This document shows positions 1,579-48,107 of a DNA stretch of 64,000 nt, one piece after another (the stretch's first letter is position 1; every line of letters begins with the position of its first letter). Source of the DNA: a virus. The notes under the pieces are model-generated. The model worked only from the letters and a program-made list of their open reading frames with translations. It was not told the origin of the DNA and ran no database searches. Both the position numbers and the translations under genes were made by a program. The stretch spans positions 1-64,000 of the IMG/VR virus record IMGVR_UViG_3300032291_003663. One strand, 5' to 3'.

Positions 1579-2948
1579 AGTTAATTATATTTGATATGGA
1601 TGGTGTGTTGGTTGAAGCTAAACAAATACACTTTGATGCTTTAAATCAAGCACTAAGAGAAATTGGTAGAAGTGAAAAGTATGTTATTAGTGAAACAGAA
1701 CATTTATCGATTTATGATGGCTTAAAAACATCTCAAAAATTAGAATTACTTACTCAAAATAAAGGATTACATCCAAACACATATGAAACTATTTGGAATA
1801 GAAAACAACATCTAACAATAGAGGCTTTAAAGCAACTAAAACCAAATCTAACGCTACAGTCAGTATTTAATGCTCTAGTAGAAGATGGATATAAAATCGC
1901 CATATGTTCAAATAGTGTTCGTAAAACAGTATTAACAGTACTATCTAAATTAGGTATTATTGAGTTTATTGACTTGATTTTATCAAATGAGGATGTAAAA
2001 AATAGCAAACCACATCCCGAAATGTATTGGACGGCAATAAGTATTTTAAGTATACTTCCTGAAGAAACATTGATTATAGAAGATAGTCCCCATGGATTAC
2101 TTGCAGCACATAGAAGTTGTGCTCACACAATGAGAGTAAGAAATCCTCATGATGTTACTTATACTAAAATTGCATTGAAATTATTTGAAATAGAAAACGG
2201 TATAGATATTATTACCAATAAGTGGAAAGATGAAAAACTAAATATATTAATACCAATGGCTGGTGCTGGTTCTAGATTTGAACAAGCGGGTTACACATTT
2301 CCAAAACCACTCATTGATGTTAACGGGAAACCAATGATTCAAGTAGTAGTTGAAAATTTAAATATAGATGCTAATTATATTTATATTGTACAAAAGAAAC
2401 ATCGTGAAAAGTATAACTTAGATACACTACTTAATCTAATAACGCCAAATTGCAAAATAGTAGAAGTAGATGGTATTACAGAAGGAGCAGCTTGTACAGC
2501 CTTACAAGCTAAAAAATATATTAATAATGACGCACCTCTATTCTTTGCAAACTTGGACCAATTTGTAGAATGGGATTCAAATGAATTCATGTACAAAATG
2601 CAAGAAACAGATGCTGATGGAGGTATTGTAACATTTAAAGCAACTCATCCTAAATGGTCATTTGTTAAGTTAGATAAAAATGGATTAGTAACTGAAGTAG
2701 CTGAAAAAAATCCAATATCGGATAACGCAACAGTAGGATTTTATTATTGGAAACAAGGTTCTGATTTTATCAAGTACGCTGAACAAATGATTGTGAATAA
2801 TATTCGTGTAAACAATGAATTTTATGTATGTCCTGTATTTAATGAAGCAATAAATGATAATAAAGATATACTTGCATTTAATATAAAGAAAATGTGGGGA
2901 CTAGGAACCCCAGAGGATTTACGTTATTTTATAGAAAATAAAAAATAA
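1572..2948 (+). CDS. bifunctional HAD phosphatase / sugar nucleotidyltransferase fusion
   Basis: 458 residues with two recognisable enzymes. Residues 1-205 are a HAD-superfamily hydrolase: nucleophile motif FDMDGVLVEA near 7-16, CSNS near 112, SKPHPEMY near 147 and IEDSPHG near 170. Residues 222-458 are an NTP_transferase-type domain with IPMAGAGSRF followed by FPKPLIDVNGKPM, the nucleotide-binding signature of sugar-1-phosphate nucleotidyltransferases. The fusion suggests consecutive steps, dephosphorylation and activation of a sugar or sugar-alcohol phosphate, but the substrate cannot be deduced. All HAD catalytic motifs appear intact. Confidence 0.8.
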   Translation: MVKLIIFDMDGVLVEAKQIHFDALNQALREIGRSEKYVISETEHLSIYDGLKTSQKLELLTQNKGLHPNTYETIWNRKQHLTIEALKQLKPNLTLQSVFNALVEDGYKIAICSNSVRKTVLTVLSKLGIIEFIDLILSNEDVKNSKPHPEMYWTAISILSILPEETLIIEDSPHGLLAAHRSCAHTMRVRNPHDVTYTKIALKLFEIENGIDIITNKWKDEKLNILIPMAGAGSRFEQAGYTFPKPLIDVNGKPMIQVVVENLNIDANYIYIVQKKHREKYNLDTLLNLITPNCKIVEVDGITEGAACTALQAKKYINNDAPLFFANLDQFVEWDSNEFMYKMQETDADGGIVTFKATHPKWSFVKLDKNGLVTEVAEKNPISDNATVGFYYWKQGSDFIKYAEQMIVNNIRVNNEFYVCPVFNEAINDNKDILAFNIKKMWGLGTPEDLRYFIENKK

Positions 2949-2951
2949 ATT

Positions 2952-3290
2952 TTGAATACATTATTAGGAATATTTTATGGGTTTCTAGCCCAGATTATTA
3001 CTTTTATTCAACTACAAGGAAATATAAAATACAACTGGTACCAAAAATACCCAGCAACTATATTAGCGGTTGCTATACCAATTAGTTGGTTATTTATTAA
3101 ATCGGTAGAACATTTAGTAAAAGCATATAATGGGGAAATATGGCCAAGTCGTTTAATTGGTTTTGCTGTAGGGATTATTGTATTTGGGGTAATGAGTTAC
3201 TTTTTATTTAATGAAGCTATTACTCATAAAACAACTGTTTGCTTATTATTAGCAGCAACAATTTTAGGAATACAAATATTTTGGAAATAA
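2952..3290 (+). CDS. small multi-pass membrane protein
   Basis: 112 residues, about four hydrophobic segments (near 3-18, 35-52, 68-88 and 94-111). It opens with TTG, three bases after the stop of the fusion gene; no in-frame ATG lies close by. No motif of known function was recognised. Membrane protein by composition only. Confidence 0.55.
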   Translation: MNTLLGIFYGFLAQIITFIQLQGNIKYNWYQKYPATILAVAIPISWLFIKSVEHLVKAYNGEIWPSRLIGFAVGIIVFGVMSYFLFNEAITHKTTVCLLLAATILGIQIFWK

Positions 3291-46161: not shown

Positions 46162-46526
46162 GGGGGTAACTGGATTTGATTGCAATGAGAATTGTAGTAT
46201 CACACGTAGAGGTAAGTGCTAGAAACTCTTTAAAACTGTACAAAACATTAACTGACGAAATGTCAACTATGACCTTTGATTCTCTTATGAGTTTCATTGG
46301 TGCTGATTACGCTCTAGCAGCCTAATTCCTCCCGTACACATCATGGGACAATTAAATAGAATGTGAAACCAATGTGGCATAGGAGCCGAATCGAACTCCT
46401 ATCACCGTCAGCTAACGCGGTGTGAGAATGTTAGATAAGTGTTCATTCTGAATAATGGAATAAACGTGTGACATGCTGGTATTATAGTTACTTTGTAAGA
46501 CGTGGGTTCGAATCCCACTACCTCCA
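46162..46526 (+). ncRNA. ssrA: tmRNA (ssrA), phage-encoded
   Basis: A 365-base gene. The 5' end GGGGGTA (46162-46168) pairs with TACCTCC (46519-46525), giving a 7-bp acceptor stem with the G3-U70 pair needed for alanylation. The T arm is GTGGG, loop TTCGAAT, CCCAC, and the D-loop-like part reads CTGGATTTGATTG. The tag frame ends in codons for Ala-Asp-Tyr-Ala-Leu-Ala-Ala and TAA at 46323-46325, matching the proteolysis tags ending in LAA. The resume codon is not certain; the frame is open upstream and could start at GAC 46254. CCA is not encoded (ACTA at 46526-46529). It frees stalled ribosomes with SmpB, here presumably the host one. Confidence 0.95.
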
Positions 46527-46555
46527 CTAAAATAATCATTATAAACAAATTAAAT

Positions 46556-47146: not shown

Positions 47147-47232
47147 GCCCTTGTGGTGAAATTGGTAGACACGCAAGACTTAAAATCTTGTTCGCTGTAA
47201 AGCGAGTGCGGGTTCAATTCCCGCTGGGGGTA
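47147..47232 (+). tRNA. tRNA-Leu (anticodon UAA)
   Basis: Normal class II tRNA of 86 bases. Acceptor GCCCTTG with TGGGGGT (several G-U pairs), Leu-type D arm, anticodon stem CAAGA/TCTTG around loop CTTAAAA (anticodon TAA), a long variable arm, T arm GCGGG-TTCAATT-CCCGC, discriminator A. CCA not encoded. It reads UUA, the leucine codon used most in this AT-rich DNA. Confidence 0.93.
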
Positions 47233-47242
47233 CTTAGTTAAT

Positions 47243-47398
47243 TGTCAAGTGGTGAAAGCTAGATCAGCAGGCATACACACCCACTCGTCTCGTGGGCGCT
47301 GAGTTTGAAATAGATGTTTTGGGTATGGGTTGACCACAAGCCGGCTATTTTGTCCAACATTGAATCACAGCGTGGAGGTTCGAATCCTTCCTTGACAG
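47243..47398 (+). ncRNA. tRNA-like RNA A with very large variable region
   Basis: 156 bases. Perfect 7-bp acceptor stem: TGTCAAG (47243-47249) with CTTGACA (47391-47397). Canonical T arm: GGAGG (47374-47378), loop TTCGAAT, CCTTC (47386-47390). An anticodon-like arm CCCAC, 7-base loop TCGTCTC, GTGGG (47280-47296) has GTC in anticodon position but C instead of the near-universal U33. Between it and the T arm lie 77 bases closed by CGCTG (47297-47301) and CAGCG (47368-47372), where a normal variable arm has 5-20 bases. The D region is also enlarged (30 bases). It may be a degenerate tRNA, a tRNA with an insert, or a new tRNA mimic. Confidence 0.6.
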
Positions 47399-47400
47399 CT

Positions 47401-47669
47401 TAAATATAGATACAAAAGGTTGATTGGGAAGCCTTACACCTTCATTAAAAAGTTGGAATGTAAGCGAGGAGGTGTAGGAACCGAAGTAAAGCCAATCGTA
47501 AAAGTAGATGTCCACGCACCCATCTTCTACTTTCCTAAAATTATTGACACGCACGGCAACCGAAGTCATACTAGTCAAAGATTAGGCAATGCGAACAACC
47601 ATGAAGAATACCTCACTGTGCGTAGGTAAGTTTTAAGTTCTTCTGACTGTGGGGAAAGACCCACTCTTT
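47401..47669 (+). ncRNA. structured linker between tRNA-like RNAs A and B
   Basis: No convincing reading frame; instead a chain of helices: GATTGG (47422-47427) with CCAATC (47492-47497), inside it CTTACA/TGTAAG competing with TACACC/GGTGTA; AAAGTAG (47501-47507) with CTACTTT (47527-47533); ACGCAC (47549-47554) with GTGCGT (47618-47623); GTGGG (47649-47653) with CCCAC (47660-47664). Such density suggests a folded RNA that continues through the array. Whether it is one transcript or processed pieces is unknown. Confidence 0.4.
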
Positions 47670-47777
47670 AGTCAGGTGGCGGAATTGGTAGACGCATTGA
47701 GGAATCTAAACTTGGTAACATTTGTTAGATTTAATAGTAATCCTCCTTCCTTACAGGTTCGAATCCTGTCCTGACTA
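47670..47777 (+). ncRNA. tRNA-like RNA B (Leu-type D arm, enlarged middle)
   Basis: 108 bases. Acceptor AGTCAGG (47670-47676) pairs fully with CCTGACT (47770-47776); discriminator A. T arm ACAGG-TTCGAAT-CCTGT. The D arm TGGCGGAATTGGTAGACGC (47677-47695) is that of a bacterial tRNA-Leu. The middle does not form a 5-bp/7-base anticodon arm: GAGGA (47699-47703) pairs with TCCTC (47741-47745), and inside it ATCTAA (47704-47709) with TTAGAT (47725-47730) around a 15-base loop. So it looks like a tRNA-Leu derivative whose anticodon domain was replaced. Confidence 0.6.
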
Positions 47778-47990
47778 CAATGGGTAAGAGATACTCACTA
47801 GTCTTTAATTCAAGACTTAAACAATGGATTCGCAGAAAGTCTACGGCGCGAGTGGGACTTCATGGGAATAAAGGAGCGGACACAACTCCTCCCAGTAGTG
47901 TTGGATGTTTTTATGAGGGATGCCTCGCAGGTTTTTAAGAAATAGAAAACCGAAACAACTACTCATCAGTAATCTCAAGGTGGGGAAAAT
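47778..47990 (+). ncRNA. structured linker between tRNA-like RNAs B and C
   Basis: Helices seen: AGTCTT (47800-47805) with AAGACT (47812-47817); CACTA (47796-47800) with TAGTG (47896-47900) as an alternative; AGGAG (47872-47876) with CTCCT (47886-47890), extended by GGG/CCC; GAGG (47915-47918) with CCTC (47923-47926); GGTTTT (47930-47935) with AAAACC (47946-47951); ATGAG/CTCAT (47913-47917, 47962-47966). No gene-like reading frame. Confidence 0.4.
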
Positions 47991-48107
47991 AGTCAGGTGG
48001 GCGTAATGAGGGATGGTCCCGAGTCCTAGAGACCAATCGACACCTGTAAAGGTGCAAAATGATGGAGTCGTAAGGTTGCTTATCCGGTTCGAGTCCGGCC
48101 CTGACTA
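47991..48107 (+). ncRNA. tRNA-like RNA C
   Basis: 117 bases. Acceptor AGTCAGG (47991-47997) pairs with CCTGACT (48100-48106), the same stem as RNA B; discriminator A. T arm CCGG-TTCGAGT-CCGG (48084-48098). The middle has local hairpins GGGA/TCCC (48010-48020) and CACCT/AGGTG (48041-48054) but no standard anticodon arm. It shares the leader GTGGGGAAA...TAGTCAGGTGG with RNA B, suggesting that B and C came from a duplication. Confidence 0.55.

Follow-up and report, generated by a model that had tools for sequence, protein, structure and literature searches.

tRNA-framed RNAs with diverse middle parts in the tRNA islands of uncultured phages: an apparently new class

Phage tRNA arrays are usually seen as codon-supply or anti-nuclease devices. 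The tRNA cluster of phage T4 also contains stable non-tRNA RNAs that are co-transcribed with the phage tRNAs, two RNAs in one phage group. The RNAs described here would resemble them in that co-transcription; the T4 RNAs, however, are not known to us as a cargo-swapping superfamily. The tRNA shape put to a non-decoding purpose is also found in the tRNA-like structures of plant RNA viruses, which lie at the 3' ends of genomic RNAs and in several cases have a pseudoknotted acceptor, and in engineered tRNA scaffolds, which are man-made and carry their cargo in the anticodon arm. The closest parallel in architecture is tmRNA (ssrA, RF00023): a tRNA acceptor and T arm sit on a structured non-tRNA domain that replaces the anticodon arm, and some of the phage elements look pseudoknotted as well. 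Unlike tmRNA, the main class of the phage elements (B class) has a canonical D arm with G18G19, cargo types are very many, and a true tmRNA is separately encoded. GOLLD and ROOL are structured phage RNAs of unknown function near tRNA islands (PMC12286853); they share the phage setting near such islands, but are several hundred nucleotides long and have no tRNA frame of their own.

Anatomy of RNAs A, B and C

The window, the whole stretch of 64,000 nucleotides that was analysed, comes from a virus record of 91 kb. A preliminary description had pointed out three oversized tRNA-like RNAs in it, here A, B and C, and their boundaries and pairings were recovered exactly as it had given them (Table 1), including the perfect 7-bp acceptor of each. 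It had assigned a canonical T arm to all three, which holds for the 5-bp stems of A and B; the T stem of C has 4 bp. B and C indeed lack an anticodon arm, to which it must be added that A possesses an anticodon-like arm (5 bp/7 nt). A phage-encoded tmRNA 0.7 kb upstream of A, absent from that description and missed by ARAGORN, belongs to the same RNA island.

Table 1. Features of the RNA island in the window (positions in the window)
Feature	Position	Strand	Evidence or remark
Phage-encoded tmRNA	46162..46529	+	Rfam RF00023, 81.4 bits, E 5e-30; same RNA island
Ordinary tRNA-Leu(UAA)	47147..47233	+	ARAGORN; Rfam 53.7 bits
RNA A, class-II-like tRNA frame with giant variable arm, G73 at end	47243..47398	+	homologs, paired alignment
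A, anticodon-like arm, 5-bp stem, 7-nt loop UCGUCUC (family YYGUCUM)	47280..47296	+	alignment A3
A, giant variable arm, 5-bp and 7-bp helices	47297..47372	+	helices 4 and 5
X1, conserved hairpin, loop UCCACGCACC	47501..47533	+	12 further loci, 85-96% identity
X2, conserved structured RNA without tRNA frame	47540..47668	+	10 other distinct homologs
RNA B, tRNA-Leu-like frame, hairpin cargo replacing anticodon arm	47670..47777	+	same cargo in 16 contigs; Rfam tRNA 39 bits
B, cargo hairpin GAGGA...UCCUC, inner helix AAUCUAA(A)C/GUUAGAUU	47699..47745	+	94% identity, flanks random
X3, conserved spacer RNA candidate, first hairpin UGRGUAAGAGAUACUCA	47778..47990	+	7 other loci, 70-85% identity
RNA C, tRNA frame, long central hairpin	47991..48107	+	homologs, covariation

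The anatomy of the tRNA family (RF00005), that is a 7-bp acceptor, a D arm and a 5-bp/7-nt T arm, is present throughout, the exceptions being the D arm and the T stem of C. RNA A pairs its acceptor as UGUCAAG/CUUGACA and its T arm as GGAGG-UUCGAAU-CCUUC; the A-type model has a 3-bp D stem, the anticodon-like arm, a two-helix variable arm with an invariant GACCAC...GCCGGC at its apex (47332-47345), the T arm and G73. RNA B has the acceptor AGUCAGG/CCUGACU (47670-47676/47770-47776), the T arm ACAGG-UUCGAAU-CCUGU, a D arm and A73, and its GAGGA/UCCUC helix lies near the usual position of the anticodon stem. The open reading frames over B resemble the usual read-through of tRNA sequence. RNA C uses the acceptor of B, closes its T stem with CCGG/CCGG and has an altered D arm: close to where that arm normally sits is the hairpin GGNA-YGG-UNCC (48010-48020). 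As a lead only, CCUCCUU at 47742-47748 of B is like the anti-Shine-Dalgarno core and is largely paired inside B, partly to GAGGA.

ARAGORN calls the tRNA-Leu alone, and Rfam at gathering threshold returns over the whole window that tRNA-Leu and the tmRNA, nothing else; A, B and C fall below the curated threshold of the tRNA family. A permissive local Rfam search aligns B to the tRNA model at 39 bits (gathering 29), leaving an insertion of 34 nt, and finds no match for A or C. Some relatives score 29-50 bits against that model. The view that these are not ordinary tRNAs with known introns is borne out by these scans, and no intron family (group I etc.) of Rfam matches the inserts of about 40-80 nt. 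A decoding anticodon arm (U33, purine 37) is found neither in B nor in C, and the A loop has U37. A tmRNA-like RNA in the strict sense, which had also been proposed, is not supported: in the Rfam scans of window and loci no tRNA-like element matches the tmRNA model, whereas separate tmRNA genes do, and the alanine identity pair G3-U70 is missing from A, B and C, where 3-70 is U-A, as in nearly all homologs. The GOLLD and ROOL models match nothing in the window or the scanned loci. A literature search, with most subscription papers outside its scope, found no description of such RNAs. The class is thus apparently new within that scope, since no Rfam family covers A, B or C at gathering threshold over the window and the tested defining features of tmRNA and of GOLLD/ROOL are absent; the frame itself is tRNA-derived.

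Conservation, distribution and cargo diversity

Relatives of A were retrieved by an internal motif of the variable arm, not by the acceptor, which gave 31 stretches, two of them probably chance matches, and about 28 homologs in environmental viral contigs. Twenty-three distinct sequences were aligned. Across the 32 pairs of their 6 helices, 98.1% of cells are paired, and 23 of the 32 pairs change on both sides. Compensatory cells number 140; shuffling leaves 41, and sliding the partner strand no more than 20. Many contigs are related, so that the changes counted here and for C are not independent events. The anticodon-like arm (helix 3) is 99.1% paired, with a covarying stem and a conserved loop, and 10 of the 12 pairs of variable-arm helices 4 and 5 change on both sides. 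Of the seven acceptor pairs, 1-72 (U-A) and 2-71 (G-C) are invariant and the other five vary. The C family, likewise retrieved by an internal motif and not by its acceptor, comprises 42 elements from environmental viral contigs, the window copy counted among them, and in addition one that is cut by a contig end; its helices are 98.5% paired with 38 compensatory cells against 14 in shuffles, located in the acceptor end, the GGNA-YGG-UNCC hairpin and the T stem, and its variation is below that of A. Hence the covariation in related phages that the preliminary description had named as a check was found in both families.

RNA B is conserved in a different manner. Its cargo is near-invariant in 16 further environmental viral contigs, and pairs of elements are 94% identical in the cargo, 91% in the T arm and 84% in the D arm, but the 96-nt flanks on either side are at 0.48 identity, the random baseline being 0.49. 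As the cargo is the best conserved part although the flanks are unrelated, it is under purifying selection, and the element moves as a unit. The minimum-energy z-scores of A, B and C are not significant (0.08, -1.24 and -0.86), and the case for the three therefore rests on comparison, not on stability.

Fetched loci totalling 1.92 Mb were searched for the frame, defined by a perfect acceptor, a T arm and the position 8-9 rule, and gave 309 elements not called by ARAGORN, 260 of them distinct, with a background of about one match per 0.6 Mb of Markov-random DNA; the loci had been chosen for such elements, so the count is not an estimate of abundance. Judged by this background and by the conservation elsewhere, with compensatory changes in A and C and a near-invariant cargo in B, the three RNAs are not a product of chance. 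Homologs, pairing and the wider set of framed elements likewise support the earlier proposal of a new class of oversized tRNA-like RNAs. The acceptor AGUCAGG/CCUGACU occurs in 186 of the 260 distinct elements, a class first seeded by that very acceptor; as an unseeded control, exact AGUCAGG was present in 28 of 47 further elements of loci fetched by the A or C motifs. Most elements share the common acceptor, A73 and a tRNA-Leu-like elbow, and carry their cargo between D arm and T arm.

The cargoes form 163 clusters, of which 131 are singletons. With one representative per cargo type, 23 of 129 have a helix of 7 bp or more ending 0-2 nt before the T stem; shuffles give 4.8 +/- 1.9 and other offsets 5-9. 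Several cargoes resemble H-type pseudoknots, with a modest overall shift (mean z -0.78). In two elements, L167:6590-6778 and L044:4212-4392, the D loop holds a long insert, inside which a T-arm-like hairpin (GUGGUUAGAAUCCAC) is nested. This insert is common to both while their cargoes differ, and therefore parts of a single RNA recombine separately.

In viral contigs at least 120 matches were found to a B pattern (5' acceptor with TGG, gap, 3' acceptor) that does not require a T arm, and nearly all the matches listed have one. Prokaryote genomes (257 Gb) yielded 7 contigs with a more specific B pattern, each metagenome-assembled and three labelled Bacteroidota; the family is therefore one of phages. 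Among cultured phages (INPHARED) A gave no match, B and C gave at most short tRNA-like pieces or tRNA halves, and a composite frame query gave tRNA halves alone among the matches listed. One B-like subfamily with a changed acceptor, AGTGCAG/CTGCACT, is present in the Manatee Spring podovirus (MW202828, L122). Tenacibaculum phages and crAss cr4_1 have no AGUCAGG element, and degenerate tRNA-like stretches are present in them; in Tenacibaculum phage pT24 (L125), the inter-tRNA spacers at 2100-3270 look like such stretches, and two genes are annotated there as 'tRNA-Undet'.

tRNA-gene features and possible roles

The tRNA-like elements have the flanks and position of tRNA genes. C74 occurs in 98% of them, compared with 100% of the true tRNAs in those loci; U-1 is found in 81% and A73 in 96%, and positions 75-77 are as in tRNAs. 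Of the 373 tRNA or tRNA-like genes that neighbour an element within 1 kb, all 373 lie on its strand. The elbow is retained, with A15:U48 in 83%, although nucleotide 48 adjoins the cargo, and G18G19 in 90%. Recognition by RNase P and the CCA-adding enzyme, as put forward in the preliminary description, would find in U-1, C74 and the elbow the features that it needs. The full leucine set (A14, A15:U48, G18G19, A73) is found in 73% of the AGUCAGG class, in 17% of non-Leu tRNAs of the same loci and in 100% of tRNA-Leu. In E. coli, leucylation can do without the anticodon arm but needs A73, A15-U48 and G18G19 (PMC9976931). Leucylation of B is therefore a specific prediction, but the set is no proof of charging, because Arg and Gln tRNAs have part of it. 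Compared with bacterial tRNA-Leu, the B class is alike in its D arm, identity set, C74 and array context, and differs in the absence of a decoding arm, in a fixed, unusual AGUCAGG/CCUGACU with A1-U72, and in a cargo of about 40-80 nt. A 1-72 pair of A-U or U-A occurs in 88% of the elements in motif-fetched loci versus 26% of tRNAs; this weak end pair may keep the RNAs out of elongation. RNA A carries G73 and hence is not a leucine acceptor by LeuRS rules; its G73, G2-C71 and GUC loop fit tRNA-Asp.

Confidence in the anatomy is high; the functional role is proposed tentatively and could well be otherwise. The reading that accounts best for the data, which we consider fairly probable, is a superfamily of tRNA-framed non-coding RNAs specific to phages, matured like tRNAs and bearing functional cargo, probably as effectors. 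A, B and C would be transcribed together with the phage tRNAs and most likely matured by the host tRNA pathway through a 5' cut by RNase P, 3' trimming and CCA addition. Each would fold into a tRNA acceptor/elbow domain plus a separately evolving structured cargo, which would replace the decoding domain in B and C and stand beside it in A. The frame would be a handle for maturation, stability and perhaps charging, Leu-like in the B class and Asp-like in A, while the work would be done by the cargo. The majority are probably host-takeover or anti-defence effectors, each with a different host RNA or protein target, which would explain so large and fast-changing a repertoire. More doubtful is a cassette system in which a common leucylatable, CCA-tailed frame would serve to mature, stabilise and perhaps localise an unlimited range of exchangeable cargoes against host translation or defence, A acting with the phage tmRNA. 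On these data, part of the array in many uncultured phages is another kind of gene, skipped or weakly scored by tRNA finders. It would be a natural counterpart of the engineered tRNA scaffold and a large new source of structured RNAs. The tRNA islands would be a likely place for RNA-based counter-defence. The variety of cargoes on the tRNA frame suggests that a wider RNA tool set is made there.

The RNAs might instead be decoys for tRNA-targeting defences, as the preliminary description had considered, offering acceptor, T arm and CCA to nucleases or transferases directed at the ends or elbows of tRNAs, while the middle merely blocks use in translation. A defence loading tRNAs through T arm, acceptor and CCA is known in Cas12a3 (PMC12851939), phage tRNAs counter defences (PMC11555353), and acceptor, T arm and C74 are conserved. 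However, a pure end-decoy needs neither a B cargo conserved above the D arm nor a variable arm of A that covaries around invariant loops, and we regard it as unlikely. Real decoding tRNAs with an undescribed intron or huge tolerated inserts would have the canonical acceptor, D and T arms, the GUC of the A arm and the placement of the GAGGA/UCCUC helix of B, but the would-be intron is the most conserved part of B and has no Rfam intron match, the 163 cargo clusters are unrelated, and in A the invariable U37 and the mostly C33 of the loop, unlike decoding tRNAs, argue against decoding; this makes the explanation very improbable. Decaying tRNA genes or functionless recombination debris could leave many singleton cargoes and nested T-arm-like inserts. 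This last reading is scarcely credible, being already contradicted by conservation: perfect acceptors, a retained 15:48 pair, C74, covariation and conserved cargo amid random flanks.

A partnership of the A-type RNA with the phage tmRNA, for instance in ribosome rescue or takeover of host trans-translation, draws on their strong co-occurrence and on the GUC loop and G73 kept by A. A tmRNA is nearby in 14 of 27 A loci, in the window and in L044, versus 1 of about 155 other loci (ARAGORN) and 0 of the 11 Rfam-scanned loci apart from L044. Yet order and spacing vary (0.3-6 kb, either side), a second A subtype is mostly without a nearby tmRNA, no phage-encoded SmpB was found, and the association may be just a clade effect. 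The partnership is also silent on B and C, and we consider it quite unlikely. The idea that the GUC loop reads the first codon of the tmRNA tag was dropped, as the predicted tags begin with D, A, V or G. The predicted tag of the window tmRNA ends ...GADYALAA; the tmRNAs of the window and of L137, L145, L146 and L152 have long conserved predicted tags, such as DEMSTMTFDDLMAFVGADYA(L/V)AA, that exceed the normal degron tag in length. ORF clustering gave no partner protein common to the loci, and a neighbour-protein search for related contigs found nothing. Elsewhere in the window, a sugar-modification cluster of the phage (10690-16904 and 28785-43277) comprises glycosyltransferases, a carbamoyltransferase and a DegT-type aminotransferase.

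Spacer RNAs and the order of the island

The spacers between the three RNAs are, as comparison of the loci indicates, two or three additional conserved RNAs in mosaic arrangement across phages. The X1 hairpin changes on both sides in two pairs, and X2 in 11 of 25 predicted pairs; the covariation of X3 is weak. X1 is a repeated feature of tRNA arrays, where it often separates tRNA-Trp from tRNA-Tyr, and X2 directly precedes B in the window, C in L111 and tRNA-Leu in L146. A is often only 5-10 nt away from a tRNA. The island of the window reads tLeu A X1 X2 B X3 C, and others, always on one strand, read A X1 X2 tLeu tmRNA, or X2 C. Further orders are tTrp X1 tTyr tGln tSer A and, with b for another tRNA-like element, tGln C b tSer b b X3.
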